Assembly: GCF_001563285.1 (NCBI RefSeq)
Contig: NZ_CP005188.1
Location: 2,361,501-2,425,500 of the forward strand
Origin: Sphingobium sp. MI1205
GTDB lineage: Bacteria; Pseudomonadota; Alphaproteobacteria; Sphingomonadales; Sphingomonadaceae
Direction: 5' to 3'
Length of the DNA stretch: 64,000 nucleotides
The position numbers and the translations under genes are program-made. The notes beneath the pieces are model-generated. The model was not told where the DNA came from. It did no database searches and was given only the letters and a program-made list of their open reading frames with translations. Numbering within the stretch: the first letter of the stretch is position 1; every line of letters starts with the position of its first letter. Positions 14,127 through 63,665 of the stretch are shown here, piece by piece.

Positions 14127-15031
14127 TCACGCCCTCCTACCCTATCGCTTCAAGAGACTGGTCAAGGTGCCCCGATCTTACGTCGAGTCATCGTACCGGC
14201 AATGCGCAACCATAGCAGCGTCCCTTCGCACAGGCGATTCGGCCCAACGCAGCGAAGAACCATTTGAGCGGAAACTTCACCCCATGCCCTCGGCCTTCCG
14301 CTAAAAATTCGTGCAGCAAGGCTATGAATTTCCACCAACTTTTGCCACTGGCCGCGGCAGGCAAATGGGGGCGTGGGAAAATGGCGCAGTCGCTGACGGC
14401 GGTTTTGGCGATCATCTATCAGGAAATATTGCTGTTCGCGGTTGTCGGCCTGGCTATCGGCGGGATCGATGATTTCCTCGTCGACATCATGTTTCTGGTG
14501 CGGCGCTGGTGGCGTAACCTGACTGTCTATTCGCGTCACACGCGCATGACGACAGCCACCTTGCCGCCCTCTGAAACACCCGGACGAATCGCTGTATTCA
14601 TCCCCGCATGGGGAGAGGCAGAGGTGATCGGCCCCATGCTTCGGAATGCCCTTGGCCAATGGTCTGAGGGCGATTACCGCATCTTCGTGGGCGTTTACCC
14701 GAACGATCCGGCGACGCTGGCGGCGGTAGCGAAAGTCGCGGATGGGGACGATCGACTGGTCCTGTGCGTTAATGAACGCCCCGGCCCGACAACCAAGGCC
14801 GACTGCCTAAACCTGCTGTGGCGAACAATGGTGACGCAGGAAGATCTTTCCAGCACGCGGTTCAAGGCGGTGGTTCTCCATGACGCAGAAGACGTCGTGC
14901 ATGCCGACGAAATCCGGCTGTTCGACCTTTTGATCGATCGGTTCCAACTCGTGCAACTTCCAGTACTGCCGCTTCCCGGTGAAGGCAGCTGGTGGTCGCG
15001 TTCGATAGCCAACCATTACTGTGACGAATTC

Positions 15032-15036
15032 GCGGA
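15032..15036 (+). other. attL core (GCGGA)
   Basis: These five bases are shared with 62931-62935. Joining host sequence left of here to host sequence right of 62935 restores an uninterrupted glycosyltransferase frame (D-E-F-A-E-S-H-G). Short identity is normal for serine recombinases. Confidence 0.9.
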
Positions 15037-15042
15037 ACCTCG

Positions 15043-15057
15043 TTGGCCATTAGCGTA
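15043..15057. repeat. attP right arm (integrase half-site)
   Basis: TTGGCCATTAGCGTA is the inverted partner of TACGCTAACGCCCAA at 62913-62927, with 13 of 15 positions matching. When the phage ends are joined, the two arms flank the GCGGA core with the symmetry axis between its 4th and 5th bases. They are probably the integrase binding half-sites. Confidence 0.75.
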
Positions 15058-15248
15058 TCTCAATGACAACGAACAAAAGCGGCCCAGCAAGGCGGCATAA
15101 CCCTGCCCTGATCGCGCCACTCCGCGTTTCAGCCGTGGAAGCATTTTCCTGTTTGTTTTCAAAGCCCGTTCCCCCAAATTCGCACCATAGGCACCCACGG
15201 TTTTCCACGGGTTTCCGAGGGGTGGGGGAACTTATCCGGCCCTATAGC

Positions 15249-15404
15249 TCAGCTCCGGTTGATGCAATTCCACCAATCGGTGTTGGCGCGATGATGCATG
15301 GGCGGCTCGCCCTTCGGCCTCGCCTTCGCAGCTTTTTTCTTCGCCGCCCTGGTGTGATGGAAGAAGGCGGCGACCGCCTGCTCTGCTTCTCGTGAGTCGC
15401 TCAT
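15249..15404 (-). CDS. small basic protein with LexA box at its start (51 aa), candidate Xis/RDF
   Basis: The ATG at 15404 opens a frame starting MSDSREAEQ, with a lysine-rich centre (RAAKKKAAKARPKGE) and the C-terminus TDWWNCINRS. A perfect LexA box ends 6 bp before the ATG, the same arrangement as at uvrA. The gene is the last one before attL. Phage directionality factors are typically small, basic and near an att site, so this is a candidate, but no sequence family supports it. A longer TTG form would start at 15440. Confidence 0.5.
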   Translation of the reverse strand: MSDSREAEQAVAAFFHHTRAAKKKAAKARPKGEPPMHHRANTDWWNCINRS

Positions 15405-15410
15405 AAATGA

Positions 15411-15425
15411 GAACATGACGAGAAC
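15411..15425 (-). promoter_or_regulatory. LexA (SOS) box inside the prophage, next to attL
   Basis: On the minus strand this reads GTTC-TCGTCAT-GTTC, a perfect match to the alphaproteobacterial LexA consensus. It lies 6 bp before the ATG at 15404. It would tie expression of the terminal small gene to the host SOS response. Confidence 0.7.
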
Positions 15426-15446
15426 GGAGCAAAAGGACAAGCCGCC

Positions 15447-16298
15447 TCACCCGCTCTCCGACGCGCCGAGCAGTCTGTTGAGAGGCATGTCGACGTTGCT
15501 GATCACCAGCTCGCGCGCGTCGGTCGGCGAACCGCTCCCGATCGAATAGAGCAGATCGACTTCAACCATCTGGAAAGCGCCGAAGAGCTGGCGGATTTCC
15601 GGACAGTCGTTGATGCTGAGCAGGAACCGGCCCTCGATCGTGGACAGCTGTTCGGCCATGGTCGAGAATTGCGAACGGTCGAACAGGTCGGCGCCATAGT
15701 CGCCTTCCGACCCGAAATAGGGCGGGTCGAGGTAGAAGAGCGTGTCCGGCCGATCATAGCGGCGGATGAAATCATGCCAGCGCAAGCGCTCGATCGTGAC
15801 CGACGCCAAACGCTCGTGCAGCTGCTCCAGCATAGGCGCCAGCCGCGTCACGTCGAAGCCGCCGCTATTCATCGGATCGACGCCGAAGTTGCGGCCTGCC
15901 ACCTTGCCGCCGAAGGCGAGGCGCTGGAGGTAGAGGAAGCGCGCGGCTCGTTCCAGGTCGGTCTGCGTCGACGGGTCCACGCGCAGCAGCTTCTCGAATC
16001 CGCTGCGCGTGGTGAGCTGGAATCGCAGCATGTCGAGGAACGCGACATAATGGCGCTGGAGGATGCGGAAAAAGGTAGAGACATCCTCCGACCAATCATT
16101 GATGTATTCCGCCCCTGGGCGGCGCGTGCGGCGTAGGAACACGCCGCCCATCCCCATGAAGACCTCGCAATAGCTGTGGTGCGGAATGCGCTCGATCGCG
16201 CGCACCAGCATGCGAGACAGGCGTCGCTTGCCGCCTATGTAGGCCGCAGGCGGACTGACGGGTTGAACGAAATCATCAAAAAGGTGGCTCGACTCCAT
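15447..16298 (-). CDS. D12-class N6-adenine DNA methyltransferase (283 aa)
   Basis: The protein contains AYIGGKRRL (about 19-27), equivalent to the F-x-G-x-K SAM-binding motif, and the catalytic LDPPYFG with DPPY at 191-194. The order is that of Dam-like D12 (alpha group) methylases. The target could be GATC or another site. The start MESSHLFDDF is preferred over an arginine-rich upstream extension that overlaps a structured RNA candidate. It is the last large gene at the left end of the prophage and may protect phage DNA. Confidence 0.93.
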   Translation of the reverse strand: MESSHLFDDFVQPVSPPAAYIGGKRRLSRMLVRAIERIPHHSYCEVFMGMGGVFLRRTRRPGAEYINDWSEDVSTFFRILQRHYVAFLDMLRFQLTTRSGFEKLLRVDPSTQTDLERAARFLYLQRLAFGGKVAGRNFGVDPMNSGGFDVTRLAPMLEQLHERLASVTIERLRWHDFIRRYDRPDTLFYLDPPYFGSEGDYGADLFDRSQFSTMAEQLSTIEGRFLLSINDCPEIRQLFGAFQMVEVDLLYSIGSGSPTDARELVISNVDMPLNRLLGASESG

Positions 16299-16375
16299 CA
16301 CTGTTCTTCCGATACGTCTCCCCCACCCGGGCGCCGGGTGGCGGGATGGACCCGACAGGATCCTGTTGGGGACAT

Positions 16376-16481
16376 GGCGGTGCATACCCGCCGGCTTGAA
16401 GCGTTAGCGCGCTTCGGCCCCCGTCTTCAGGGCACTTTCCATCGGCCGCACAAATATCCTTCGGCACTATATGCAACCGCC
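16376..16481 (-). ncRNA. candidate structured RNA upstream of the adenine methylase
   Basis: Read on the minus strand, GGCGGTTGCATA (16470-16481) pairs with TATGCACCGCC (16376-16386), 11 pairs with one bulge. It encloses CGGCC/GGCCG (16444-16448 with 16415-16419) and a hairpin GAAGCG/CGCTTC (16398-16403 with 16410-16415). Below it, between 16321 and 16375, two more hairpins lead to the methylase start. It could be a cis-regulatory leader or a phage small RNA. No known riboswitch class was matched. Confidence 0.55.
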
Positions 16482-16513
16482 TAAATTGCTGATAATCAAC
16501 ACGCTCTCTTGCA

Positions 16514-16543
16514 GGTCCCGTCTCCTACCCCGGAGGCGGGACC
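16514..16543. terminator. strong hairpin at the end of the lysis genes
   Basis: GGTCCCG-TCTCC and GGAG-GCGGGACC form a nearly perfect stem with a short loop, 2 bp beyond the stop of the outer spanin gene. The minus-strand side lacks a T tract, while the plus side continues ATTTATTT. It probably marks the end of the late transcript. Confidence 0.6.
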
Positions 16544-16545
16544 AT

Positions 16546-16854
16546 TTATTTCCGGGTACGCGAGAGCTTCTCCACTTCCACGTTGTGCCGGATGATCTCT
16601 TCCCGGCTCGCCACATAGGCGTTCACCACGGCCGCGTGTCGAAGGCGGCACTCGTCATTCAGTGCGGCGTTCGGCGACGTCGCCCGCGCCAGCGTCGCCC
16701 ACATCGGGTCGGGCAACTGTTGCAGCTGCTGGCAAGGCGCACTCAATTCCGCCGTCAGCGCGGCGGGAACAGGCGCTGCCGGCGAGGGCGGCGTTGAGTT
16801 GACGCCACAGGCCGTCAGACATGCGAGCATCAGGGCGGGCAAGCGCCGGATCAT
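16546..16854 (-). CDS. o-spanin (Rz1-like outer-membrane lipoprotein, 102 aa)
   Basis: A type II signal peptide with lipobox LTAC is followed by a proline-rich stretch (STPPSPAAPVP), typical of Rz1. It starts inside the i-spanin gene in a different frame and extends 109 bp beyond it. With the inner-membrane partner it would fuse the membranes in the last step of lysis. The assignment rests on architecture and position. Confidence 0.8.
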   Translation of the reverse strand: MIRRLPALMLACLTACGVNSTPPSPAAPVPAALTAELSAPCQQLQQLPDPMWATLARATSPNAALNDECRLRHAAVVNAYVASREEIIRHNVEVEKLSRTRK

Positions 16855-17137
16855 GGGCGATTTCCTTTTCGATTGCGGGCTGGATGATGGTGCGGTGATA
16901 GACCTTCACCGCCGCGATCTTGTCGGCCAGGTCGCGGTCCTGGAAGCGGATGACGCCGGCCATGCGCCCTTCGCTGTCGCGCAGCAGCCCATCGAACATC
17001 GCCCGGATCTTCAGCTGGTCCATCTGAAAATCTTTGCGCGCGCGCTGATAGCCGCGATGATCGACATACCAGAGTCCGCCGAGCACGGCCGCCACGACCA
17101 GCAGGTGCGGCCAGATACGGGAGAAGAACGCGCCCAT
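16655..17137 (-). CDS. i-spanin (Rz-like, 160 aa)
   Basis: The N-terminal signal anchor (FFSRIWPHLLVVAAVLGGLWYVDHRG) precedes a helical periplasmic domain (RARKDFQMDQLKIR, LADKIAAVKVYH). The start overlaps the holin-like gene's stop (TGATG). The last 200 bp carry the o-spanin gene in another frame, the overlapping Rz/Rz1 arrangement. Confidence 0.78.
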   Translation of the reverse strand: MGAFFSRIWPHLLVVAAVLGGLWYVDHRGYQRARKDFQMDQLKIRAMFDGLLRDSEGRMAGVIRFQDRDLADKIAAVKVYHRTIIQPAIEKEIAHDPALARPDARMSDGLWRQLNAALAGSACSRRADGGIECALPAAATVARPDVGDAGAGDVAERRTE

Positions 17138-17457
17138 CACGCCTTCTCCGCCGCAGCCTGAATTCGATCGGCCGCTTCCTCCCCGACGCTTTCCACGGTG
17201 TTGCCACCCACCTTGAGCTTGAAGGTGCGGCGGCCGAGGATAGCCGACAGGCCAGTCAGCACGATGCCGATGAGTATCAGGCATCCATAGGCGAAATAGG
17301 CTACAGGCCACGGCCCCGTCGACTTTTCGGCAAGCAGCGTCAAGGCGCGCCATGCGATCACCGTGCAGGCGATTCCGCCTGCCCCGAGAAATACGATGCC
17401 GACGAGTCGCCGCCAGTCGCGGGCTGTCCATGCGGCCGTGTCGGGGAGAAGCGTCAT
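17137..17457 (-). CDS. holin-like membrane protein (106 aa)
   Basis: Two membrane segments are visible (VGIVFLGAGGIACTVIAW, about 24-41, and VAYFAYGCLILIGIVLTGL, about 57-75), followed by a soluble tail RRTFKLKVGGNTVESVGEEA. The position between the lysozyme side and the spanins fits a holin that permeabilises the inner membrane for endolysin release. The start overlaps the upstream stop by one base. Confidence 0.65.
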   Translation of the reverse strand: MTLLPDTAAWTARDWRRLVGIVFLGAGGIACTVIAWRALTLLAEKSTGPWPVAYFAYGCLILIGIVLTGLSAILGRRTFKLKVGGNTVESVGEEAADRIQAAAEKA

Positions 17458-17843
17458 CACCCCTCCTCCCCGTGCCTGGCGAAAATCAAGCCCAACGCAT
17501 TGCGCGGCCCGCTGTGACGCTTGTTGGCATGCGTCCGGGGCTGGAACTGGAAATCCACCGGAAGCCCGGTCTGCTTCGACAGGCGTTCCGATATTGCGAC
17601 CGTCATCACTATCCAGCGAGGATCGAATTCCCAATGCTCTTTCGCGTGAGGGAAGAGCCCGGAGAACGCCTCATCATCCATGATCATCCGCACGTCGATA
17701 TCGCGCCAGTCCGGCCGCTCCAACGAGGAACCAACCAGATAGCAGGATCCGGGGAACGCCTGATTTAGGAGCTGGCATTCAGCTTCGAGCGCGAAACATG
17801 CAGGCGCACCCACATAGACGGCCTTCTTGCGCGCCTCGTTCAT
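17457..17843 (-). CDS. nucleotidyltransferase-like phage protein (128 aa)
   Basis: LVGSSLERPDWRDIDVRMIM matches the small nucleotidyltransferase core G-S-S...D-x-D (about residues 36-54). A tail rich in basic residues (PRTHANKRHSGPRNALG) follows. Such proteins recur in lysis regions of phages of this group, with unknown substrate. Translation is coupled to the lysozyme (ATGA overlap) and to the holin-like gene. Confidence 0.65.
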   Translation of the reverse strand: MNEARKKAVYVGAPACFALEAECQLLNQAFPGSCYLVGSSLERPDWRDIDVRMIMDDEAFSGLFPHAKEHWEFDPRWIVMTVAISERLSKQTGLPVDFQFQPRTHANKRHSGPRNALGLIFARHGEEG

Positions 17844-18454
17844 GACCGCCCCTCATACATGGCGCGCTCAGCTGCGCGGCGCCGTCTCAGCCCGGCCATG
17901 ACCTTGCCGTCATTCTTGTCCCACTTGGGAAACTCGGCGGCAGCGCACGCATAGTCGCCAGCCTTATGCTTCCGCAGCAGCGTCGAATCGCCCAGCCCCT
18001 CGGCCTTGCCGTCTCCATCCATGTCGAGCCCGACATTATAGGCAAAGGACACCAGAGCATCGAACTGCGTCTGGGTGGTAGGAGCGCCGTTCAGAAGGGT
18101 GTTGACGCCGATCTCCACCGCCACGAGGTCGCGGGCGAACAGCCGGTCAGCCTTCGGCTTGTCCCACTTCGCGCCGCGCGGGATCGGCCCGCCATTCTCG
18201 TCGCGGGTCGTGCCCCAGCCGTTGGTGATCGGAAGACCATTGGCGCTGCCGGGATCGGGATAGGCTACCAGTCGCAGCTGTTCGAAACTGTGAATCAGGG
18301 CAACACCCGCGGCGCTGCATTTCATGCCCGCCTTGCCAGTCATGACGACGTGACCGGCAAGTTCCGCGTTGACTTGGTCGACCTCGGCCTGCGTCAGCGC
18401 CTTTCCTTTGATCGCGCGGATCACGTCGAACAGCCGCTTGCTCTCAAACCCCAT
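17840..18454 (-). CDS. endolysin, GH24 lysozyme (204 aa)
   Basis: Residues about 45-200 form the phage lysozyme domain: catalytic Glu58 in IHSFEQLRL, then YPDPGS and TNGWGTT carrying the Asp and Thr positions, and FDALVSFAYNVG further on. A 40-residue N-terminal helical segment (FDVIRAIKGKALTQAEVDQVN) precedes it, a common extension in endolysins of this family. No signal peptide is seen, so release should depend on the holin. The ATG at 18454 has a GGGGGT site before it. Confidence 0.93.
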   Translation of the reverse strand: MGFESKRLFDVIRAIKGKALTQAEVDQVNAELAGHVVMTGKAGMKCSAAGVALIHSFEQLRLVAYPDPGSANGLPITNGWGTTRDENGGPIPRGAKWDKPKADRLFARDLVAVEIGVNTLLNGAPTTQTQFDALVSFAYNVGLDMDGDGKAEGLGDSTLLRKHKAGDYACAAAEFPKWDKNDGKVMAGLRRRRAAERAMYEGRS

Positions 18455-18514
18455 GATTACCCCCATGAAAAAGGGCGCCCGAAGCGCCCCATGCAAATGA
18501 CAATGTGCCGACGG

Positions 18515-18955
18515 TTACAGCCTGCCCGCGTCCGCCTCGTCGATCCGGCCCAGCGCGCGCGCCATGTCCTCCGGCACTGCCAGATGAATCGGGAAAGCCT
18601 CGGCAAGGATCTTCTGCGCCTGCATCAGCGCCGCCGATTGCGGGTGCCGCTGGAGCAGCTCGGCGGCGACCATGTGGAACGCCATCCGCCATTTATCGAC
18701 GGCCACCGTCAAATCGCCCACCTGCCGCTCCAGGCCGTTCATCCTGTGGTCGAGCTTGTCGTCGAGGTCCTTCTCCCGACGGGCCAGCTCCTCGTGCCAT
18801 TTGTCCAGCTTGGCCGAACGGGTCGAGGCCCGCACATCCCGCCAGTTGATCAGCCAGGCCAGGCCCTTTCCGACCGCGACACCCATCGCAACCACGCCGG
18901 CAAGGACGCCCCCGACCTCGCCCGACGATATTCCACCTGCCCCCGGATCAGGCAT
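18515..18955 (-). CDS. phage membrane protein with coiled coil (146 aa)
   Basis: One membrane segment (GGVLAGVVAMGVAVGKGLAW, about 15-35) precedes a long charged coiled coil (LDKWHEELARREKDLDDKLD and onward). The C-terminal part contains a helix with LLQRHPQSAALMQAQKILAEAF. It lies just upstream of the endolysin and may act in lysis timing or membrane anchoring; the function is not known. Confidence 0.65.
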   Translation of the reverse strand: MPDPGAGGISSGEVGGVLAGVVAMGVAVGKGLAWLINWRDVRASTRSAKLDKWHEELARREKDLDDKLDHRMNGLERQVGDLTVAVDKWRMAFHMVAAELLQRHPQSAALMQAQKILAEAFPIHLAVPEDMARALGRIDEADAGRL

Positions 18956-19022
18956 AGTTGGTATCTCCCTGTACTGAAAATGCTTGGCGGTGATTTGTGC
19001 GCGAGCCTTACTATAAAGGCGG

Positions 19023-19277
19023 CTAGCATGATCCGTGCTGGAGCACCTTGCGGCGCGTCGGCTTGATCGGGCCGGATATAATTTGCAGCGTCGCTTTGGA
19101 AACTTCTAACAGGTCCAGATATGGGCCCGAAACCACTTGTAGCGTGGCCTTGGATATTGACATGAACCCAAAAGACGGCCCGGAAGCCACTTGCAAGGTC
19201 GCCTTGGAGACAAAGATTTTCTCGGACGGCGGGCTGGAAGCGACTTGCAAGGTCGCCTTGGATATGGAGATCGTCAT
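19023..19277 (-). CDS. short repeat protein, four SKATLQV-type repeats (84 aa)
   Basis: Four copies of S-K-A-T-L-Q-V/I-x-S-x-P follow each other at intervals of about 16-19 residues: SKATLQVASSP, SKATLQVASGP, SKATLQVVSGP and SKATLQIISGP. They fill most of the protein. The units alternate a beta-strand-like core and a variable spacer, so a small beta-solenoid or multivalent binder is plausible. The start ATG overlaps the stop of the preceding tail gene (ATGA). The family was not recognised. Confidence 0.7.
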   Translation of the reverse strand: MTISISKATLQVASSPPSEKIFVSKATLQVASGPSFGFMSISKATLQVVSGPYLDLLEVSKATLQIISGPIKPTRRKVLQHGSC

Positions 19278-20245
19278 GCGACCGCCTCGACCCCCCACTC
19301 CAGCGCCGCGTCATTGGCATCGGTCGAGGTCCAAGCCGCGCTTGTCGCCGGGTTGAGCGCCCAAACATATTGATAGGCGTCAAAGCCGGTGGTGAGAGCT
19401 ATGTCCGGGCTATAGTAGCGGGTGCCGCCGATCTTGAGATAGAATTTCATGTTTTGCGGGCCGGATGCGTCTCGCTTGGCGCGGGCGGCCACGCCCACGC
19501 CACGCACAAGGGCAAGTGTGCTGGTACGCGCCGGACTGGTGAAGCTGTTGCGCTCACCCGCTGCGCCAAAGGTGATGATGTCCGTATCATTGAGGGGAGC
19601 CTCGTCCACATCAGTATAGGCTCCGGTGCCGGTCGCATCCCCGCCCGCGCCGGTGGGCGCTTCCGTCTCCACCACAACGCCAACGGTCGAAAGATTGGCA
19701 TCCTCCACCACCAGCTCCGAAAAATAGCCAGCGAGGTTATTGTCCGGCGTGCCCCAAACGATAGTTTTCACGTCCACGGTCGCTGTGCCCATGGTGCCGG
19801 ACGCCTTGATGACACCATCGACCAAAACGATGAAGTTTGCGCCGCTCGCGCCGGTTTTCAGATAGATGGCATATGATGATTGACCGCCGGTGATCGTCCA
19901 CGACGATCCGACCGAAGTCCAAGCAGAGCCGTTCCAATACTGCGCCCAGAATACGCCGGGGGACGTTGTGTATACCCGAAATACATTGTTCGCGGAGGTA
20001 TCCTTGACCAGCACAATATAGTCGTTCTGATCGTCATCCCACGCCCCGGCATAGGTGATAGCATGTAGCCAGCACTCCGTCAGTGCAGAGCCGAGGGCTA
20101 TGGTGCCCAGCGCCGTGCCGTCCGGGCTTGCCAGACTTGCGCGGGAGTTCGCTGTCCGCCGCGCGGCGGTGGTGGCGGTGTCCTCCGCCATCGTTCCTGC
20201 GATCCTCACGCCGGACGCTTCCGTGGCTGCAAAAACAATACTCAC
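19274..20245 (-). CDS. putative tail/fibre protein (323 aa)
   Basis: The start is GTG, overlapping the upstream stop as GTGA. The composition (Gly, Ala, Thr, Ser, aromatic) and predicted beta-rich pattern (YWNGSAWTSVGSSW, FIVLVDGVIKASGTMG, FYLKIGGTRYYSPD) suggest jelly-roll or lectin-like domains in the distal tail. It lies directly behind the DUF2793 gene. A receptor-binding or adaptor role is inferred only. Confidence 0.6.
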   Translation of the reverse strand: MSIVFAATEASGVRIAGTMAEDTATTAARRTANSRASLASPDGTALGTIALGSALTECWLHAITYAGAWDDDQNDYIVLVKDTSANNVFRVYTTSPGVFWAQYWNGSAWTSVGSSWTITGGQSSYAIYLKTGASGANFIVLVDGVIKASGTMGTATVDVKTIVWGTPDNNLAGYFSELVVEDANLSTVGVVVETEAPTGAGGDATGTGAYTDVDEAPLNDTDIITFGAAGERNSFTSPARTSTLALVRGVGVAARAKRDASGPQNMKFYLKIGGTRYYSPDIALTTGFDAYQYVWALNPATSAAWTSTDANDAALEWGVEAVA

Positions 20246-20913
20246 GTCAAATCTCCCGTCATGGTCCAGATATCGGTCCCAACCTTTTTAAGCTGGCAAA
20301 CGGCATGTTGGCCGCCGCTGGTGTAGAGCGAGCCATGGCTGTTGATCGTCACGCCCGACCCCGGCGAAACCGTCACCGCGCCCGCCCCATTTTGCTCAAA
20401 GGTGAGCACGGACCAGACGGGCCAGTTGACCGACGCCTCCGGCGGGATCGTGAATGCTACCGGGAGGGCATTGGTGAAAAGAATATAACTACCAGCGTCA
20501 TCGCGGACCGCATCATATGTGGTGCCGGGCACAGTCTTCAGAGCAGCGGCGGCGCCCGGCCAAAAAGGATTCCAGCTCGCGCCGTCATATTCAATCAGCA
20601 GATCTTCGTCCTTGACCAACAATTGATTACCGTGCCGCGCGACGTTCGCAAAATACCACCCGTTGCTCGCATCGGTGCCGATCGCGATGGCAAGCTCGCC
20701 ATCATGCCCCACCCATAAACCTGTCGCGGCCGCGGCAATCAGATAGCGCGCGCCATTCGCGCAGCTGCCAGGGGGCGCCGTCAGATCGCGATCCTCCACG
20801 ATCGAGCGACTCGCGAAGGCATCGAAGATGAATGAAGCCTCGTTGACTGCATCCCATGGAGAAGCCTGGGAGGCAGCCCACATAGGCGCCCCGGTGTTAG
20901 GAAAATCTGTCAT
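20242..20913 (-). CDS. DUF2793 tail protein (223 aa)
   Basis: The first 120 residues match DUF2793: QASPWDAVNEASFIFDAF, then DRDLTAPPGS, ARYLIAAAATGLWVGHDGE and LIEYDGASW. This family occurs at the tail end of alphaproteobacterial phages and gene transfer agents. The C-terminal 90 residues form a beta-rich domain like those found in tail fibre tips (LTFEQNGAGAVTVSPGSGV). Confidence 0.85.
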   Translation of the reverse strand: MTDFPNTGAPMWAASQASPWDAVNEASFIFDAFASRSIVEDRDLTAPPGSCANGARYLIAAAATGLWVGHDGELAIAIGTDASNGWYFANVARHGNQLLVKDEDLLIEYDGASWNPFWPGAAAALKTVPGTTYDAVRDDAGSYILFTNALPVAFTIPPEASVNWPVWSVLTFEQNGAGAVTVSPGSGVTINSHGSLYTSGGQHAVCQLKKVGTDIWTMTGDLT

Positions 20914-20921
20914 GTTACCCC

Positions 20922-55681: not shown

Positions 55682-55710
55682 TTGACCCGTCACATATGAC
55701 GGTGTAGCTA
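55682..55710 (+). promoter_or_regulatory. rightward early promoter
   Basis: TTGACC (55682-55687), 17-bp spacer, then TAGCTA (55705-55710). The first operator lies in the spacer and the second covers the start region, so two repressor dimers would block it. It drives the operon 55739-62920. Confidence 0.75.
55687..55702. promoter_or_regulatory. repressor operator 1, right early promoter
   Basis: CCGTCACATATGACGG, with half sites CCGTCA and TGACGG. It lies between the -35 and -10 of the rightward promoter. Confidence 0.88.
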
Positions 55711-55712
55711 AC

Positions 55713-55728
55713 CCGTCATATGTGACGG
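55713..55728. promoter_or_regulatory. repressor operator 2, right early promoter
   Basis: CCGTCATATGTGACGG, the reverse orientation of operator 1. Its centre is 26 bp from that of operator 1, so two dimers could contact each other on one DNA face. Confidence 0.88.
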
Positions 55729-55738
55729 AGATTGCACC

Positions 55739-56182
55739 ATGCTTCAGACGCCCACCGAATTCCCGCACGTCGGCAGCTATGCCGTCTTTCGCAACACCAA
55801 GGTCCGCATTCAGCGGATCAATCCAAACGGCACGCGCCTGGTGACGGGCATTACCGATCGCCGCAAACAGGTGACCGCGACCGTGGCGCTGGATCAGCTC
55901 ACCGCTTATGCCGCACCCGAAGACGCGATCGAGCTATGGTCCTCGGCGCGGATCGCATCGGTCCACAGCGACGCTTTCACGACGCGGGACGATGCCTGGG
56001 CCGATTTCTTCGCCTGGCACCGGAATGTCTATCAGCGCGAGCCCGCCATCGACAAAGCCGTCTTTGCCCGACGCCTGAGCGATAGCGGCTTCCGCATGGA
56101 ACGCCGTCGCCCGCTTTACGCCAAGGGCATCCGCAACGGCTTCGGCTTCGCGCTTCTCGACGCCGCCGAGATGGCAGCATGA
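55739..56182 (+). CDS. early phage protein with primase-type winged-helix C-terminus (147 aa)
   Basis: The first gene of the rightward operon, 8 nt after an ACGGAG ribosome site. The N-terminal half (FRNTKVRIQRINPNGTRLVTGI) is basic and beta-rich. The C-terminal part (AWADFFAWHRNVYQREPAIDKAVFARRL, then LYAKGIRNGFGFALLD) resembles the winged-helix domain found behind D5-type helicases. It could be a small DNA-binding regulator or replication accessory. Confidence 0.65.
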   Translation: MLQTPTEFPHVGSYAVFRNTKVRIQRINPNGTRLVTGITDRRKQVTATVALDQLTAYAAPEDAIELWSSARIASVHSDAFTTRDDAWADFFAWHRNVYQREPAIDKAVFARRLSDSGFRMERRRPLYAKGIRNGFGFALLDAAEMAA

Positions 56183-56355
56183 GCGCCGCGGTTCCCGCTG
56201 CCGCCGTCATGATCTTCGCGATCGCGTGGTTCGCCCTCTCGATCATCGTCGGCATGTTCTTCGAATATCGAGATCGGATCGCCGCCGCTCTCACGATGGA
56301 GCCGATGCCGGGCGACCAGCGATATCGCGCGGGGCAGCCGGTGGAACGGCGGTGA
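56179..56355 (+). CDS. small membrane protein (58 aa)
   Basis: The start overlaps the upstream stop (ATGA). One membrane helix (AAAVMIFAIAWFALSIIVGMFF) is followed by a basic and polar C-terminus (EYRDRIAAALTMEPMPGDQRYR). Function unknown. Position in the coupled series and length of the open frame support it. Confidence 0.68.
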   Translation: MSAAVPAAAVMIFAIAWFALSIIVGMFFEYRDRIAAALTMEPMPGDQRYRAGQPVERR

Positions 56356-56357
56356 TC

Positions 56358-56654
56358 ATGGCCCAGGACAGACCGAACCAGCGCGGAATGACCGTGGTGA
56401 CGAAGGAAGGATCATGGACCCTTCTGCCGCCGGGCCCCGGCCGCTGCACAGAGTGCGGCACCGTGCACGAGCCTGAGCTGCCGCATAATGCGCAAAGCCT
56501 CTATTATCAGGCCGCCTTCCACATGCAGCATGGCCGGACTGCGACCTGGCTGGATGCGATGGAGCATTGCTCCGACGCGATGAAGGCGCTCTGGACCGAA
56601 AAGCTCGAAGAGCTGGGCGTCAAGGTCAGGGGCGGCGGGGTCAATCCTTCATGA
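56358..56654 (+). CDS. conserved phage protein with Cys/His cluster (98 aa)
   Basis: CTECGTVHEPELPH near residue 32 suggests a zinc site. It is followed by LYYQAAFHMQHGRTATWLDAMEHCSDAMKALWTEKLEELG, a helical bundle known from several phages. The start at 56358 lies 2 bp after the preceding stop. Role unknown. Confidence 0.7.
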   Translation: MAQDRPNQRGMTVVTKEGSWTLLPPGPGRCTECGTVHEPELPHNAQSLYYQAAFHMQHGRTATWLDAMEHCSDAMKALWTEKLEELGVKVRGGGVNPS

Positions 56655-56797
56655 GCCGCGCCGCCGCCTTCTTCGCCGTACTGGTCGCCATAGGCGTGCT
56701 GTTGCTGCTCAGCGCGATCGACTTCGGAAAGCTCCCTTTCACCCCAGGTCGCCGCCCCGACTGTGGCGAGCCATCCGTCGAGGCTCATCATGGATAA
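56651..56797 (+). CDS. small membrane protein (48 aa)
   Basis: The start overlaps the stop of the preceding gene (ATGA). A single membrane helix (AAAFFAVLVAIGVLLLLSAIDFG) precedes a short tail with one Cys. It could be an early membrane factor, such as a small inhibitor; no similarity supports a specific role. Confidence 0.6.
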   Translation: MSRAAAFFAVLVAIGVLLLLSAIDFGKLPFTPGRRPDCGEPSVEAHHG

Positions 56798-57212
56798 GCC
56801 CGCTCGAATCCAGCTGTCGCGCGCCAAGGGGTGGCGCATGCCCGACAACACGGTGAAGGTCGATCGCTCGACCAAGTGGGGCAATCCGTTCAACTTCAAG
56901 TCGTCGGCTCACTGCTGGACGGCGCTGTCATATGGCGAACGCGGCGACCCCGCCGGGCGGCACGCGGCGAGCGTGAAGGCTTTCCGCGAATGGATTGAGG
57001 GTGGCAAGTTCATGCTGCTCACCGGCGTCGGCCTCTATGCCGTCCACAAAGGCAGGAAGAAGCCCGTCGCTGTTTCACCCGATGTTGCGGCTCCTAAAGC
57101 TCCATCGCTCGAACAGATACGCACCGAACTGCGGGGGAAGAACCTCGCCTGCTGGTGCCGACCGGGCGAGCCCTGCCACGCCGATGTATTGCTGGAGATC
57201 GCCAATGGCTAA
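56790..57212 (+). CDS. DUF4326 protein (140 aa)
   Basis: The pattern DRSTKWGNPFNF near the N-terminus and RGKNLACWCRPGEPCHADVLLEIAN at the C-terminus are the DUF4326 signatures. The conserved C-W-C and P-C-H suggest a metal site. Members occur in phages and near DNA modification genes; activity unknown. Confidence 0.88.
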   Translation: MDKPARIQLSRAKGWRMPDNTVKVDRSTKWGNPFNFKSSAHCWTALSYGERGDPAGRHAASVKAFREWIEGGKFMLLTGVGLYAVHKGRKKPVAVSPDVAAPKAPSLEQIRTELRGKNLACWCRPGEPCHADVLLEIANG

Positions 57213-57675
57213 GGTCAGCAATGAGGCGCGCAGCGCGGCTGCCGACATTCTGGAAGCAATCGGACTGACTGCCACCGCCGCATGTGTGCGCGAGGGCAAC
57301 AGTGACAGCGACCCGACAGTGCAGGAGGTCGCGCGCTTCGAAGCAGCGACGATCGAGAGGGTCGCCAATCCCTCACCACCGAGCGCGCCGAACGATTTTC
57401 GGACCATCGCTGCTCGACTGGTTAAGTGGGACAAAGACTATCCGGTCAATTGCTGGAACGGCTATGCGGGCCTGAAAGAGCTGGATGCGATCATAGCCGA
57501 TGCGTCAGCCGCCCTCTCCATCGGCGCTCAAGAGCGAAGGGAGCGGAAATGCGCGCTATCACCAAATGGCAAGCATCAGGTCGACACTTCCATGGAAAGC
57601 GGTCCTAACAACTGCTTCCATTGCGAACAACCGATGAACGGCCGGGGCGGCAATAGGGAGGACGCCCATGTCTGA
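57205..57675 (+). CDS. phage protein (156 aa)
   Basis: The ATG at 57205 overlaps the DUF4326 stop. Two segments stand out: ARSAAADILEAIGLTATAACVREG at the N-terminus, and a C-terminal cysteine cluster C-F-H-C-E-Q-P-M-N that could bind zinc. The central FRTIAARLVKWDKDYPVN appears in phage proteins of unknown role. Confidence 0.65.
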   Translation: MAKVSNEARSAAADILEAIGLTATAACVREGNSDSDPTVQEVARFEAATIERVANPSPPSAPNDFRTIAARLVKWDKDYPVNCWNGYAGLKELDAIIADASAALSIGAQERRERKCALSPNGKHQVDTSMESGPNNCFHCEQPMNGRGGNREDAHV

Positions 57676-58087
57676 CCTCCTCCAGCTGGCCGACCGCGTC
57701 GAGCGCGGTGTGATCAAGGCGCTGTCGATCAAGCAGCCCTACCCCCACCACATTTTTCACGACGGCAAGGATGTCGAGAACCGCAGTTGGGGCACCAGGG
57801 GCCGAGGCTGGTTCATCATCCATGCCGGCGTGTCGAAGAGCGAACTGGACATGCAGGATCCGAAAGAGGCGGCTATACCACGCGGCGGCGTGGTCGGCAT
57901 GGCCCGCATCGTCGATTGCGTGACCGAGATGGATTCGCGCTGGTTCTTCGGTCCCTATGGCTTCGTGCTGCACGACGCCTTCCCGCTGCCGCTCATCCCC
58001 TGCCGGGGTCAGCTGGGATTCTTCTGCCTCGACGCGGACACGCAGAGAGCGGTGGCACAGCAGATTCGGGAGCGCGCCAATGGCTGA
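57668..58087 (+). CDS. ASCH domain protein (139 aa)
   Basis: The motif set IKALSIKQPYPHHIFHDGKDVENRSWGTRGRGWFIIHAG is the ASCH fold, an RNA/nucleotide-binding domain related to PUA. Phage ASCH proteins may edit or bind modified nucleotides. It lies between a zinc-binding protein and the DUF5131 gene, and overlaps both. Confidence 0.9.
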   Translation: MSDLLQLADRVERGVIKALSIKQPYPHHIFHDGKDVENRSWGTRGRGWFIIHAGVSKSELDMQDPKEAAIPRGGVVGMARIVDCVTEMDSRWFFGPYGFVLHDAFPLPLIPCRGQLGFFCLDADTQRAVAQQIRERANG

Positions 58088-59240
58088 CGGCACCAAGATC
58101 GAATGGACCGACGCGACGGTGAACGGCATCAACGGCTGCTCCGTCCTGTCGCCGGGCTGCACCAACTGCTACGCGATGCGGCTTGCCGGAACCCGGCTGA
58201 AGCATCACCCCTCCCGCGCGGGCCTGACCATCGACAGCAAGGCTGGGCCGGTCTGGAACGGCGAGGTCCGGTTGAACGAGGACAAGCTGCTCCAGCCGCT
58301 CCGCTGGGCCAAGCCGCGCCGTATCTTCTGGAACGCGCACGGCGACATGTTCCACCCGGCCGTGCCCGATGCGTGGATCGACCGCTGCTTTGCCGTCATG
58401 GCGCTGACGCCGCAGCACATCCACCAGGTGCTGACGAAGCGATCCGATCGGATGCGGGCATACATGGAGCGCGCATGCGGACGTATCGCCGATAGGATCA
58501 TCGCCATGCGGCGCCATCGGGGGGAGCGCGTAATTGTCGCGCCGCTGGAGCATGTCCAGCCGGGCGCTGCTTGGTGGGCGCTTCCGAATGTCTGGCTAGG
58601 CGTTTCGGTCGAGGACCACGCCCGCGCCCTGACGCGAATTCCCGATCTGCTCGCAACCCCGGCAGCAGTGCGCTGGCTGTCATGTGAACCCCTGCTCGGC
58701 CCTATCTATCTGACCGACATTGCCGACGGCGGGTCGACGGTGCTGGATCCTGAATGCTGGGGGGACTGCAATTGCAGCGGGCTGTTCGGTCATGATCCGG
58801 GCTGTCGCCGTAATGGCGGTGATGGCACACTTACCCGCAAAATCGATTGGGTGGTGGCCGGCGGTGAGAGCGGGCCGGACGCCCGCCCAATGCACCCGAT
58901 GTGGGTACGCACCCTGCGCGACGACTGCGACAAGGCGGGCGTCCCGTTCTTCTTCAAGCAATGGGGCAGCTGGGCGCCGGTCTGTGCGATGAGCGAGGAG
59001 CTGATCGACGGCTGCTATCATCCCGCGCCGGTCCGCCACCCGGACGCCTCGCGCCGCTGCAAGGTCCAGTCCCACATTCTCCATGATGACGGGTCGCAGC
59101 ATCACTTCCTGGAGGATGGCGCGTTTCTGCACGGCACCGGCGCCATGCAGATGATGGCCGTCGGCAAGCGCAAGGCCGGTCGCCTGCTCGACGGCGTCCA
59201 GCACGACGGGATGCCGGAGGTTGCCCATGGCAGCCATTGA
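58080..59240 (+). CDS. DUF5131 (phage Gp37/Gp68) family protein (386 aa)
   Basis: TKIEWTDATVNGINGCSVLSPGCTNCYA carries three cysteines (20, 27, 30) of C-x6-C-x2-C type, then LTKRSDRMRAYM and WLGVSVEDHARALTRIPDLLATPAAVRWLSCEPLLGPI follow the family. The cysteine cluster suggests an iron-sulphur or radical-SAM-like enzyme; the substrate is not known. The ATG at 58080 overlaps the ASCH stop. Confidence 0.9.
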   Translation: MADGTKIEWTDATVNGINGCSVLSPGCTNCYAMRLAGTRLKHHPSRAGLTIDSKAGPVWNGEVRLNEDKLLQPLRWAKPRRIFWNAHGDMFHPAVPDAWIDRCFAVMALTPQHIHQVLTKRSDRMRAYMERACGRIADRIIAMRRHRGERVIVAPLEHVQPGAAWWALPNVWLGVSVEDHARALTRIPDLLATPAAVRWLSCEPLLGPIYLTDIADGGSTVLDPECWGDCNCSGLFGHDPGCRRNGGDGTLTRKIDWVVAGGESGPDARPMHPMWVRTLRDDCDKAGVPFFFKQWGSWAPVCAMSEELIDGCYHPAPVRHPDASRRCKVQSHILHDDGSQHHFLEDGAFLHGTGAMQMMAVGKRKAGRLLDGVQHDGMPEVAHGSH

Positions 59241-60432
59241 CAACCTGTTCGCCGCTGGCGCGCGCATGGTATCCGAGGAGGCGATCGAACTGACGCTTCA
59301 ATCCCTCCGCGCCTATTGGGACAAGCACGAGCATGTCGCCATCGCGTGGTCGGGAGGCAAGGACAGCACTGCAACCCTGACGCTGCTCGTTCACCTGATC
59401 GAAGCGGGCGAGTTGCCGCGACCGGCGAAGCTCTATGTCTTCTATGCTGACACCCGACAGGAGCTTCCGCCCATACAAATCGCGGCCGAGCAGGTCATTG
59501 CGCTGCTGCGCCTGCGCCACTGGATCGAGGTCATCGTCGTTTGCGCGCCACTAGATAAGCGGTTCATGGTCTATATCCTTGGCCGGGGCGTGCCGCCGCC
59601 TAACAACAACACCCTCCGTTGGTGCACCCGGCAGATCAAGGTCGAGCCGATGGCCGAGGCGCTGGGCGCTGCAATCGCCGCGCTACCCGGCACAGCACTG
59701 ATGATTACCGGCGTGCGCCAGGGCGAGAGCGCGGCGCGCGACGGGCGGATTGAGATGTCCTGCTCGAAGGACGGCGCCGAATGCGGGCAGGGCTGGTATC
59801 AGCAGGCACTGCCTGAGAGCAAAGGCGTGCGCGGCCGTATCGCGACGCTTGCGCCGATCCTGCACTGGCGCGTCTGCATCGTCTGGGACTGGCTGAAGGT
59901 CTATGCGCCGCAGCCTGAATTCGGGGGCTGGCCAGTTCGCATCCTTGCCGATGCCTATGGCGGTGATGATGCCGAGGAGATCAACGCCCGCACTGGCTGT
60001 ATCGGCTGTCCGCTTGCGGTGAAAGACACGGCGCTCGACTACCTCGTCGGCACCGAGGCATGGGCACACCTGGCCGCACTGAAGGAGTTGAAGCCCCTCT
60101 ATCGGTGGATGCGCCAGCCGGCCCAGCGCCTGCGCAAGGCCGGGGCCGAGACGCTTAAAAACGGCAGCTTGGCGAAGAACCCTCAGCGCATGGGGCCGCT
60201 GACGCTGGAGGCGCGTGTGGATGCGCTGGCGAGGATCCTCGACATCCAAAGCCGGGCGCAGGTCGACCTGATCAATGCCGAGGAAGAGGCCCGCATCCGC
60301 GAGCTGATCGGCGCGCGCACATTCCCGGAGAAGTGGGACGGCAGCGAGCCGAACGCTTCGGTCTGGCTCGACCGTGTCAACGGCGACGGCTCGGTCGAGC
60401 CGATCCTCTTCCGCGACATGGTGGGACAATGA
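59227..60432 (+). CDS. DndC/PAPS-reductase-like PP-loop protein (401 aa)
   Basis: The PP-loop SGGKDS is at 42-47 (AIAWSGGKDSTA), and GRGVPPPNNNTLRWCTRQIKVEP matches the DndC region where ATP-activated sulphur transfer takes place. A C-x2-C (TGCIGCPLA) may hold an iron-sulphur cluster. DndC works with DndA, B, D and E to replace a DNA oxygen by sulphur, but those genes are absent here. The start overlaps the DUF5131 stop by 14 bp. Confidence 0.88.
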   Translation: MAAIDNLFAAGARMVSEEAIELTLQSLRAYWDKHEHVAIAWSGGKDSTATLTLLVHLIEAGELPRPAKLYVFYADTRQELPPIQIAAEQVIALLRLRHWIEVIVVCAPLDKRFMVYILGRGVPPPNNNTLRWCTRQIKVEPMAEALGAAIAALPGTALMITGVRQGESAARDGRIEMSCSKDGAECGQGWYQQALPESKGVRGRIATLAPILHWRVCIVWDWLKVYAPQPEFGGWPVRILADAYGGDDAEEINARTGCIGCPLAVKDTALDYLVGTEAWAHLAALKELKPLYRWMRQPAQRLRKAGAETLKNGSLAKNPQRMGPLTLEARVDALARILDIQSRAQVDLINAEEEARIRELIGARTFPEKWDGSEPNASVWLDRVNGDGSVEPILFRDMVGQ

Positions 60433-60854
60433 GCTGCCACCTCCTCAGCGAACCTTTGCCGCCGACCACCCTTCAGCACGCGGCCGAGCAGGAACGAGCC
60501 CGCCGCGCCGCCGCGTCGAAGGCGTCGGTCGAGGCGGGCAAGGTGTCGGTCGAGAAGGCGGACTATGACGACGCCATCTGGTCGAACATCGTCCACTTCT
60601 TCCGCCGCTGGTCGGGCGACACCCGCGAGCCGCAGGGCTGGTCCGAGGCCCAGCGCGAGATCATGTCGAAGAGTGCGCGCGCCACCTATAAGCGCATGCT
60701 GGAGGTGCTGGACGGCAGCACTAGGCAGGAGGACTTCGACAAGCTGAAGGGCCTGCGCGATATCTGGTACGCTCTCGAATTCACGCTGCTCTACTGCAAA
60801 GTCTATCCCCAGCCGCGCCCCCACTGCATCCCGGGCAGGACGGCGGCAGCATGA
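60429..60854 (+). CDS. phage protein (141 aa)
   Basis: The ATG overlaps the preceding stop (ATGA). The product is helical with HAAEQERARRAAASKASVEAG, then EAQREIMSKSARATYKRMLEVL and DIWYALEFTLLYC. No family was recognised. It lies between the DndC-like gene and the HNH gene. Confidence 0.62.
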   Translation: MSCHLLSEPLPPTTLQHAAEQERARRAAASKASVEAGKVSVEKADYDDAIWSNIVHFFRRWSGDTREPQGWSEAQREIMSKSARATYKRMLEVLDGSTRQEDFDKLKGLRDIWYALEFTLLYCKVYPQPRPHCIPGRTAAA

Positions 60855-61216
60855 CTCCCGCCTGCCTCCGCATCCTCATCGCGGCACGCCTCGCCGAGAA
60901 GCAGCGCGTGCTGATCGGCTCGCGCAATGGCCTGACGAAGCCGTGCCGTCTGTGGACCGGAGCGCAGTCGAAGGGCGGCAAGCGGCCGAGCAGCGGCCCC
61001 TATGGCTCGATCTGGATCCCCGGCTTCAACGCCGTGCGCGTCCATGTCGCGGTCGCATGGGTCACGGGCATCATCCCCACGCCTCGCGTGCCCGACGGCA
61101 TGAACCTCGACCACCGCTGCGAGCGGACGCTCTGCATCGAGGAAAGTCATTACGAGCTGATCCCGGCCGAGACGAACCGAGCGCTGCGCTGGAGCCGCAG
61201 GAGGAAGGCAGCATGA
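60851..61216 (+). CDS. HNH endonuclease (121 aa)
   Basis: The C-terminal part carries the HNH pattern D-H-x-C...C-I-E-E-S-H-Y-E-L...N (MNLDHRCERTLCIEESHYEL). The N-terminal half (RLWTGAQSKGG, GPYGSIWIPGF) is common in phage HNH proteins that act near packaging or as free-standing nucleases. It overlaps both neighbours by 4 bp. Confidence 0.85.
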   Translation: MTPACLRILIAARLAEKQRVLIGSRNGLTKPCRLWTGAQSKGGKRPSSGPYGSIWIPGFNAVRVHVAVAWVTGIIPTPRVPDGMNLDHRCERTLCIEESHYELIPAETNRALRWSRRRKAA

Positions 61217-61377
61217 GCCTTGATCCAAAGATGCGGGAATTCGTAAAGGCGCTTGCGCGCGCCCAGGTTGCAAGAGACATTGCCGCCCTTCGCGCCGCCC
61301 AGAATCCACACGGGCGAAGCGGCCAGCCAGGAGACGCCGGTGCGGACGGTCATCTACGCACGCTTCAGCAGCGATAA
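61213..61377 (+). CDS. small protein overlapping the integrase start (54 aa)
   Basis: An ATGA overlap with the HNH stop opens a frame for MSLDPKMREFVKALARAQVAR and a short hydrophilic tail. It ends 38 bp inside the integrase gene. The tight overlaps suggest translation, but no function is apparent. Confidence 0.5.
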   Translation: MSLDPKMREFVKALARAQVARDIAALRAAQNPHGRSGQPGDAGADGHLRTLQQR

Positions 61378-62920
61378 TCAAAATCCGCGCTCGACCGCGG
61401 ATCAGATCGCTCTGTGCCGCCAGCGCGCGGAGCAGGAAGGCTGGCACGTCGTCGCCACGTTCGAGGATGCCGCAACTTCCGGCGCAGCCGGCATCGATGC
61501 GCACCAGCGCCCAGGACTGCACGCCATGATGCAGATGGTCGAGGCTGGCGGCATCGACCAGGTGCTCGCCGAATCAACCGACCGCATCTCCCGCCACATC
61601 GCCGACGCCCACATGATCCGCGAACGGATCGAATTCGTCGGCGCGCGGCTCTTCACGCTCTTCGACGGCACCGTCACGCCCATGATCGGCCTGGTCAAAG
61701 GCTTCATGGACGCACAGTTTCGCACCGACCTCGCCAAGCGCGTGCGGCGCGGCCAGCTGGGCACGCTCAAGCAAGGCCGCATCCCGGGCAGCATCGCCTA
61801 CGGCTATCGTCACGCCAACCGGCTCGACGAAAAAGGGCAGCTGGTGCGCGGGCTCCGCGAGATCGACACTGAGAAGGCCGACATCGTCCGCCGCATATTC
61901 GCCGAATATGCCGCTGGCCGCAGCCCCCGCCAGATTGCAGCTAGGTTGACCGCAGACGGCGTGCCGGCGCCACAGGGCGCGCTTTGGCACGAGACCGCGA
62001 TCAGTGGCGACCTGAAGCACAAGCGGGGCATCCTTCGCAACGAGACCTATATCGGCGTCGTCACCTACGGTCGCAGCAGCCAAGTCGTTAATCCGCAGAC
62101 TAGGCAGAGGCTAATGCGTCCCAACCCTGAGGAAGCGGTAGAGCGTCAGGCCTTCCCGCATCTCCGGATCATCGACGATCATCTCTGGCAGCAGGTCCAG
62201 GAACGCCTCGCGTCGAACCAGGGCGTCCGCCCTGAGCGTAAGCGCCGGCCCAAGCATGTCCTATCGGGCCTGGGCTTCTGCGGCGTTTGTGGCGCGGCAT
62301 GGGTTAAAGCGAGCGGCGACTTCTGGCGATGCAGCAACTATCGCTACCGCCTCGGATGCTCGAACAATCATATGACGAACACGCGCCTATATGAGCGTGG
62401 TGTGCTCGCGGACCTGAAGGCGGGCCTGCTTTCCCCTGACGCCATCACCGAATATGTGCGCGAATATCACCGCGACTTCGCCCGCCAGTCAGCCGAGCTG
62501 GGCCGCGATCGGGCCAAGATCGAGCGCAAGCTACAGGAAGCAGAGCGCAAGATGGAGCGCATGCTGAAGGCGTTTAGCGAGGGCGGCAGTGAATTCGCCG
62601 AAATCCGAACGATGCTCGCGGCCGCGCGAGATGAAAAGGAACGACTCACCCGCGAACTCGCCAGCTTGGACGCCATGCCCAACGTGCTATCGCTCCACCC
62701 GCATATCGAGCAGGCCTATCGTAATCAGGTCGAAGAGCTGGAAAAGGCCCTTGCCGAGCCAGAAGCCGAGCTGGAGGCTGTCCCACGCCTTCGCGCTATG
62801 ATCGCGCGCGTGATCGTCCATCCTGACACCGAACGGAAGCGCGGCGTTAAGGTCGAGGTGGTGCGACAGATGGACGAGATTCTGTCCATGGCCAAAGGGC
62901 AGCAAGCTCAATTACGCTAA
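61340..62920 (+). CDS. large serine recombinase (integrase, 526 aa)
   Basis: Catalytic Ser10 lies in VRTVIYARFSSDNQ, followed by the resolvase core (LCRQRAEQEGW, LAESTDRISRHIADAHMI) and the recombinase domain (GSIAYGYRHANRLDEKGQLV, RNETYIGVVTYG). A zinc ribbon has Cys314, 317, 331 and 340, and a coiled coil follows (RDRAKIERKLQEAERKMERML). GTG with AGGAG 6 nt away is the chosen start. Its stop codon is inside the left attP arm. It integrates by attP x attB without cofactors; excision needs a directionality factor. Confidence 0.96.
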   Translation: MRTVIYARFSSDNQNPRSTADQIALCRQRAEQEGWHVVATFEDAATSGAAGIDAHQRPGLHAMMQMVEAGGIDQVLAESTDRISRHIADAHMIRERIEFVGARLFTLFDGTVTPMIGLVKGFMDAQFRTDLAKRVRRGQLGTLKQGRIPGSIAYGYRHANRLDEKGQLVRGLREIDTEKADIVRRIFAEYAAGRSPRQIAARLTADGVPAPQGALWHETAISGDLKHKRGILRNETYIGVVTYGRSSQVVNPQTRQRLMRPNPEEAVERQAFPHLRIIDDHLWQQVQERLASNQGVRPERKRRPKHVLSGLGFCGVCGAAWVKASGDFWRCSNYRYRLGCSNNHMTNTRLYERGVLADLKAGLLSPDAITEYVREYHRDFARQSAELGRDRAKIERKLQEAERKMERMLKAFSEGGSEFAEIRTMLAAARDEKERLTRELASLDAMPNVLSLHPHIEQAYRNQVEELEKALAEPEAELEAVPRLRAMIARVIVHPDTERKRGVKVEVVRQMDEILSMAKGQQAQLR

Positions 62921-62927
62921 CGCCCAA
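62913..62927. repeat. attP left arm (integrase half-site)
   Basis: TACGCTAACGCCCAA overlaps the last bases of the integrase gene and is inverted relative to 15043-15057 (13 of 15 positions). Confidence 0.75.
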
Positions 62928-62930
62928 TTA

Positions 62931-62935
62931 GCGGA
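62931..62935 (+). other. attR core (GCGGA)
   Basis: The core repeats 15032-15036. The glycosyltransferase frame resumes directly here (GCG GAG AGT CAC GGG). Confidence 0.9.
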
Positions 62936-63665
62936 GAGTCACGGGAAGTATCTGACGATCCGGGAAGCCATGGGCGCATCGGTGCCCTCTGCCGGTGTCG
63001 CCTGCGCATTCGAACGGCTCACGCTCGATCGCTTGGTCAATCCAGCCAATGGCGGGCCTTTCGACCCCGAATCCCTGACCGAAGATTATGAAGTCGGTCT
63101 GCGGATCAAGAATATGGGAGGCCGCGGTGTATTCGTACGCATGCGGGACAGAGCGGGCGATCTGGTCGCAACACGCGAATATTTCCCGGACAGCCTTGAT
63201 GGCGCGGTCCGGCAAAAGGCGCGGTGGATGGTCGGCATTTCCCTTGCGGGATGGGATCGCATGGGCTGGCAAGGCGGTCCTGCAGAATGGTGGATGCGCA
63301 TCCGTGATCGCCGCGCCGCTATCGCCGCCTTCGTCCTCTTGGCCGCCTATCTCTCGTTCATCCTGTGGGGCGCGCTTCTGCTCGCGAGCTGGTTCGGCCT
63401 TGAAGCCGCCCCTCAACCCTCGCCCTTGATCGAGATGCTGCTCTGGCTGAACTTCGCATTCATGGCGTGGCGGATTGCGATGCGCGCCATTTTCGTGGGG
63501 CGAAGCTATGGGTGGCTATATGGGCTCGGCGCGATACCCCGCGCGATCCTCGCCAACCTGATCGCCATGCTTGCCGCCCGGCGCGCCGTCTTCCTCTATC
63601 TTGATTCCCTGTTCGGCAAGCCACTCGCCTGGGACAAGACGCAACATCGCTTCCCCAAGCTTTAG
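62931..63665 (+). pseudogene. NfrB-like glycosyltransferase, C-terminal half (split by prophage)
   Basis: 245 codons continue the left fragment in frame: SHGKYLTIREAMGASVPSAGVA, ESLTEDYEVGLRI with the conserved T-E-D acceptor motif, RQKARWMVGIS, then two to three membrane segments (IAAFVLLAAYLSFILWG, LIEMLLWLNFAFMAW, AIPRAILANLIAML). Downstream of the membrane region E. coli NfrB has an MshEN c-di-GMP domain; here the protein ends at PKL, so it is absent. A free ATG at 62970 may allow a truncated product. Confidence 0.9.

Follow-up and report, generated by a model that had tools for sequence, protein, structure and literature searches.

A serine-recombinase prophage in Sphingobium sp. MI1205 splits a conserved glycosyltransferase gene that is also broken by other mobile elements

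The window analyzed here is a 64,000-nucleotide stretch of the Sphingobium sp. MI1205 genome (NZ_CP005188.1, positions 2,361,501 to 2,425,500). It carries a 47.9-kb prophage, bounded by two copies of GCGGA (15032-15036 and 62931-62935), which splits a gene for a family-2 glycosyltransferase. The gene was matched in 93 of 94 Sphingobium genomes, and in 17 of the 93 it was found only in pieces. To judge from the sequences, at least four unrelated kinds of recombinase have broken it across the genus and family, at positions distinct from one another: two clades of large serine recombinase (LSR), an IS1595-type transposon, and a tyrosine integrase. We regard the anatomy of the insertion and the recurrence of the gene as a target as practically certain. 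The explanation of the whole that we favor, as a reasonably probable one, is an LSR prophage at a fixed attB site in a conserved gene that is broken convergently.

RESULTS

The attachment site and the prophage

Host sequences 14324-15031 and 62931-63665 join into a single open frame of 480 residues. The cores and the in-frame rejoining had been proposed in an earlier reading of the window (the original prediction), and both were borne out. That reading had also called for a search for the intact gene in related strains. The junction aligned without a gap in 30 of 30 intact orthologues, the best-scoring of the 76 single-match copies of the genus, which upholds a site-specific insertion whose excision would restore the frame. 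The features of the site are as follows:

14324..15031, + strand, left host part (codons 1-236) of the glycosyltransferase gene, whose frame in the lysogen continues into phage DNA and stops at 15100
15032..15036, + strand, attL core GCGGA, with the likely crossover GA at 15035-15036
15037..15062, + strand, left phage arm of attP, from the arm comparison
15037..62930, no strand assigned, prophage, with endolysin, tail, head, protease, portal, terminase, primase, repressor, and integrase genes by PHROGs
61253..62920, + strand, LSR, taken as the longest reading frame, with a provisional start codon
62908..62933, + strand, right phage arm of attP, from the arm comparison
62931..62935, + strand, attR core GCGGA, from the sequence
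62936..63665, + strand, right host fragment of the glycosyltransferase gene, from the sequence

Five identical core bases, taken alone, are poor proof of an attachment site. The two attP arms are inverted copies of each other at 17 of 26 bases, a value reached by 7 of 20,000 random phage positions. The only dinucleotide common to all related prophages with both ends read (G010, G021, G038, and G044) was GA, and for this reason we place the crossover, probably, at the GA of 15035-15036 and 62934-62935. A pattern fitting attL, attR, attB, and attP found two sites in the strain's own assembly, one attL and one attR. The same pattern found no attB or attP there, that is, neither an empty nor a circular site, and a pattern built from one attP arm gave 0 stretches in the viral contigs, where a free phage form was sought.

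The LSR frame ends 10 nt upstream of the right core. Its product has the domains PF00239 (Resolvase) and PF07508 (Recombinase) above cut-off and matches phrog_95, with Zn_ribbon_recom slightly under the cut-off (24.7 vs. 25.3). These domains, the position beside the attachment site, and the inverted-repeat arms are those of an LSR integrase. The PHROGs scan covered 30 reading frames of the prophage, and the head, protease, and terminase genes that it recognized were those for the major head protein, maturation protease, and large terminase.

The split enzyme and its resemblance to NfrB

The rejoined protein has glycosyltransferase domains only, with the three motifs of the family-2 domain divided between the fragments:

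14879..14893, + strand, HDAED (DxD) motif, residues 186-190, on the left fragment
63078..63086, + strand, TED motif, residues 286-288, on the right fragment
63213..63227, + strand, QxxRW motif (QKARW), residues 331-335, on the right fragment

NfrB homologues conserve DxD, TED, and QxxRW, and NfrB active-site variants are reported not to restore plating of phage N4 (PMC8669469). Neither fragment has the full set, DxD being on the left and TED and QxxRW on the right, and therefore the lysogen should be without the enzyme. A gene-similarity search of the 17 split-gene genomes of the genus found no compensating second copy, only the fragments. That the lysogen lacks a working glycosyltransferase, as had been suggested originally, is thus very probably correct, as far as motif positions can tell.

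The original prediction also described the protein as NfrB-like and placed E. coli NfrB in a pathway regulated by c-di-GMP. The likeness holds for the glycosyltransferase domain, which is 39% identical to Escherichia coli NfrB over 464 residues. It does not extend to the rest: the domain scan of the 480-residue protein found no MshEN domain, which E. coli NfrB has at 542-628, and the score with the NCBIfam NfrB model (NF008411) was 367.7 bits, under the cut-off of 1170. The best NCBIfam model was NF011307, with 708 bits (cut-off 431). Control by c-di-GMP was rejected on the absence of MshEN, and a role in phage reception, for which homology is the basis, is partly supported at best. Two longer second relatives, with frames of about 750 residues and 28-29% identity, stand beside a full-length copy in G192 (C6:74972-76207) and G338 (C3:47162-48262).

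The next gene begins 8 nt downstream of the glycosyltransferase gene:

63674..64000, + strand, gene of 349 residues extending past the window, predicted helix and 12-stranded outer-membrane barrel

By sequence this gene was not recognized as NfrA, with no Pfam match and no significant BLASTP or profile-comparison match to NfrA. It had no TPR or NfrA_C match, and no NfrA entry was among the matches listed, which does not prove that there is none. The locus resembles the NfrB/NfrA N4 receptor pathway of E. coli, as described in two reports (PMC8669469, PMC8669472), in the 39% identical domain with its three motifs and the adjoining predicted barrel gene; it differs in the missing MshEN domain, the score under the NfrB cut-off, and a barrel gene without TPR or NfrA_C match.

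Frequency of interruption

The 17 genomes with the gene in pieces were G000, G003, G004, G008, G010, G012, G021, G025, G034, G038, G044, G046, G053, G055, G071, G079, and G089. Both pieces lay on one contig in 14 of them, about 3.5 to 48 kb apart; in G025 and G089 the pieces were on two contigs, and in G055, which has no element class assigned, the gene ended at a contig edge. As a control, the neighboring gene TauE was a single full-length piece in all 93 genomes that have it, giving Fisher p values of 7e-6 (17/93 vs. 0/93) and 7e-5 for the 14 genomes with both pieces on one contig. A second control, uvrA (1006 residues; matched in 92 of 94 genomes), had no copy with kilobases between pieces on one contig.

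Several points weigh against the explanation we favor. The uvrA gene was itself in pieces in 4 of 92 genomes, as adjacent, frameshift-like pieces in G021, G040, and G078 and on two contigs in G059, where the split may reflect an insertion. If all four are counted as broken, the Fisher p values rise to 0.004 (17 genomes) and 0.02 (14 genomes). The controls are two genes only, and the receptor function of the glycosyltransferase is based on homology at 39% identity.

In the wider family sample the gene was present in 272 of 298 genomes. Thirty-seven family genomes with multiple or weak matches were followed up: 12 were dissected, 8 had a full-length match, and 17 were left without a class (G100, G161, G163, G198, G204, G250, G281, G298, G305, G323, G336, G343, G345, G352, G363, G364, and G367).

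Tree and dN/dS analyses used 30 of the 76 single-match genus copies together with the interrupted rows. A tree of 47 copies (46 counted), in which the placement of some long rows is unsure, required 14 state changes (counted singly, five for class A, six for class B, and three for class C); most interruptions are therefore separate events. Against the nearest intact copy, dN/dS was 0.06-0.20 for the 30 intact rows and 0.06-0.53 for the 16 interrupted rows, 14 of which were below 0.30. As a test of reversibility dN/dS was not decisive, since synonymous sites are near saturation. A stop lay inside an alignment piece in 8 of the 46 dN/dS rows, and within the matched stretch in 9 of the 76 single-match copies, though the open frame there was at least 474 residues.

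If loss of the glycan were selected in the host, for example by phage attack, the elements would be mere mutagens. We consider this improbable. The breaks fall at a few repeated positions and come from site-selective elements, and no matching load of point mutations was seen, the checked rows of the 76 copies having open frames of at least 456 residues.

Element classes that break the gene

Class A comprises the LSR clade of the window, inserted at codon 237 in G000, G010, G012, G021, G038, and G044 (68-100% identical; all six genus members of the clade). Further members are G262 (63%), the viral contigs L035 and L036, and Sphingomonas aracearum L065 (63-67%). Wherever the flank could be read (10 of 10), the recombinase adjoins the glycosyltransferase gene; L034 stops at the end of its contig. 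The gene also has a 50% relative next to it in G303, and relatives of 51-52% in G021 (a second copy) and G066 are elsewhere. In four of the six genus cases the prophage lies opposite to that of the window with the same core GA (L037/L038, L050, L051, and L054). A palindromic core dinucleotide was tried as the reason for the two orientations and was rejected, the common dinucleotide being GA. G000 and G021 are sister rows on the tree, yet their recombinases are 71% identical and their prophages are oppositely oriented. Two class A genes have further changes: in G044 the right fragment has taken up another insertion, with a 9-bp repeat on either side (L053 reversed, near 4590 and 7247), and in G012 the right fragment begins only at about residue 357, part of the gene being lost.

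Class B is a second LSR clade, inserted at HDAED in G008, G025, G046, G053, and G079, with a remnant in G004; a 51% relative in G074 is elsewhere. Class C is the IS1595-type transposon, at codon 173 in G003, G034, G071, G110, G232, G248, and G315 and at codon 150 in G173, G322, and G326. In class D (G089, G129, and G282) the right fragment adjoins a tyrosine integrase, at codons 225-232. These elements were read at L115 1870-12261, L059 5997-7058, and L097 2794-3828. The G129 insert of about 11 kb carries terminase, portal, and helicase-primase-like genes, and we take it to be possibly a phage satellite. In G382 a 23-kb island at about codon 290 (L121 2115 to L122 11191) has a third LSR, a patatin-like gene, and a Mutator-type transposase; it is not counted as a fifth recombinase type, as the inserting enzyme could be either the LSR or the transposase.

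Unrelated recombinases have thus entered the same gene at conserved positions across species. Searches of the open-licence literature turned up no earlier account of integration into this gene. The class A, B, and D sites are in or near conserved motifs (HDAED; HYCDEFAE), which fits a neutral account in which the DNA of invariant motifs offers stable attachment sites in a gene that can be lost at little cost, with no benefit from exclusion. The tree, on which almost all interruptions arise as changes of their own, fits this account as well, and we consider it a serious possibility, a little short of an even one. It accords less well with the low dN/dS of the gene copies and with the retention of the gene in 93 of 94 genus genomes and 272 of 298 family genomes. 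Such near-universal retention argues against a glycosyltransferase that is needed by nobody.

The IS1595-type transposon and its companion protein

The IS1595-type elements have a companion gene of about 158 residues beside one end (for example, L039 2022-5786 and 25 similar). The sample of 26 transposons included three from the genus and 23 from 23 of the 298 family genomes. Ten were in the glycosyltransferase gene, nine in comM at two repeated sites, and seven elsewhere or unreadable. The comM identity is based on a piece that scored best with a YifB-family Mg-chelatase-like model and is too short for the full-length cut-off. An exact 8-bp duplication was present in 21 of the 22 transposons with both ends readable. 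Separately, both the glycosyltransferase gene and comM are broken in G008, G053, and G025.

The companion tree tracked the target, with four changes and none of 200 shuffles as low (23 rows, four of them with single targets and ungrouped). The transposase tree (21 rows) did not: 171 of 200 shuffles needed as few as its 10 changes. G300, G132, and G347, with unreadable ends or target, were left out of both trees, and G253 and G245 out of the transposase tree. Two pairs from the same genus had 95% and 92% identical transposases and 35% identical companions, and the members of each pair had different target genes. Five further genus elements (L167-L171) were all in comM; the nearest companion predicted the target in all five, and of the three for which a nearest transposase was readable, two would have been assigned the wrong gene by it. 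Against the association, G134 and G245 belong to a comM companion clade and are inserted elsewhere. The target thus appears to follow the companion and not the transposase, as an association and not a proof.

The predicted structure of the companion is a long coiled helix with a winged-helix fold (pLDDT 83). A Foldseek search gave no match at E 0.001 or better, and its top rows were winged-helix regulators. No report of target choice by a companion protein in IS1595 elements was found in the open-licence literature. In Tn7-type transposons, as apparently here, a separate protein sets the target; unlike those, the present elements pair an IS1595-family transposase with a winged-helix companion, and the link is one of association only.

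Other genes of the window

Two DNA methyltransferase genes are in the prophage (15447-16385 and 50151-51890), as are a DndC-like gene with a PAPS-reductase domain and a PADLOC candidate match (59221-60432) and a frame matching the PADLOC candidates PDC-M41B/PDC-M30B (57957-59240). In the upstream host flank, a DUF4062 protein (5810-6784) immediately follows uvrA.

DISCUSSION

In the explanation we favor, the LSR of a temperate phage would recombine attP with attB at codon 237, probably at the core GA. The glycosyltransferase gene would then be off in the lysogen, which would probably also make less of the barrel protein, and excision would restore the frame. Several types of element may converge on the gene because its breakage costs little. 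The resident element may also gain from it, should the glycan let rival phages in; a gain of this kind has been proposed for elements in competence genes.

In a report on competence genes, mobile elements insert convergently in comYC, comFA, comM, and comK (PMC4774983). Our case is similar in that unrelated integrases enter one gene at conserved positions in several species; it differs in that the target is a probable surface-glycan enzyme and not a DNA-uptake function. By this analogy we propose, tentatively, that the resident element may benefit from the exclusion of rivals. A broader version is doubtful: at least four unrelated elements would break the gene because its product admits rival phages, as with comM and transformation, and an exchangeable winged-helix protein in the IS1595-type family would pick this gene or comM. 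Judging by gene content, temperate phages are among the elements concerned, as is a phage-like element that carries terminase and portal genes. Two answers to the convergence are live: elements may settle in the DNA of invariant motifs because the gene is cheap to lose, or its breakage may exclude rivals.

The original prediction went further and proposed a candidate gene switch regulated by the phage, in which excision turns the gene back on. In such a switch (active lysogeny) excision would be timed and would restore the gene when needed. The split is indeed precise, in frame, and restorable, and a precedent in a polysaccharide gene is described in one report, where the SPbeta prophage in spsM of Bacillus subtilis undergoes developmentally regulated excision, shown experimentally (PMC4191935). 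The two cases agree in that a polysaccharide gene is interrupted by a prophage with a serine recombinase and is made whole by excision; they differ in that other element classes break the same gene here, where the split is known from sequence alone. The assembly shows attL and attR only, and neither an empty nor a circular site. A directionality factor was not identified, and part of the gene is lost in G012. Transposons and the tyrosine-integrase element also break the gene, which makes a phage-specific switch one of several readings. The switch is therefore unsupported, and we judge it very improbable.

Prophages that split host genes are already known. What is unusual is that one conserved, probably surface-related gene is broken independently, at repeated positions, by phages, a phage-like element, and transposons. 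This makes a general question testable, namely whether mobile elements choose genes whose loss excludes competitors. The repeated breakage makes the glycosyltransferase gene either a low-cost landing site or a point of entry over which elements compete. If it is true that the companion sets the target gene, a simple transposase would have in it a targeting module that can be exchanged.

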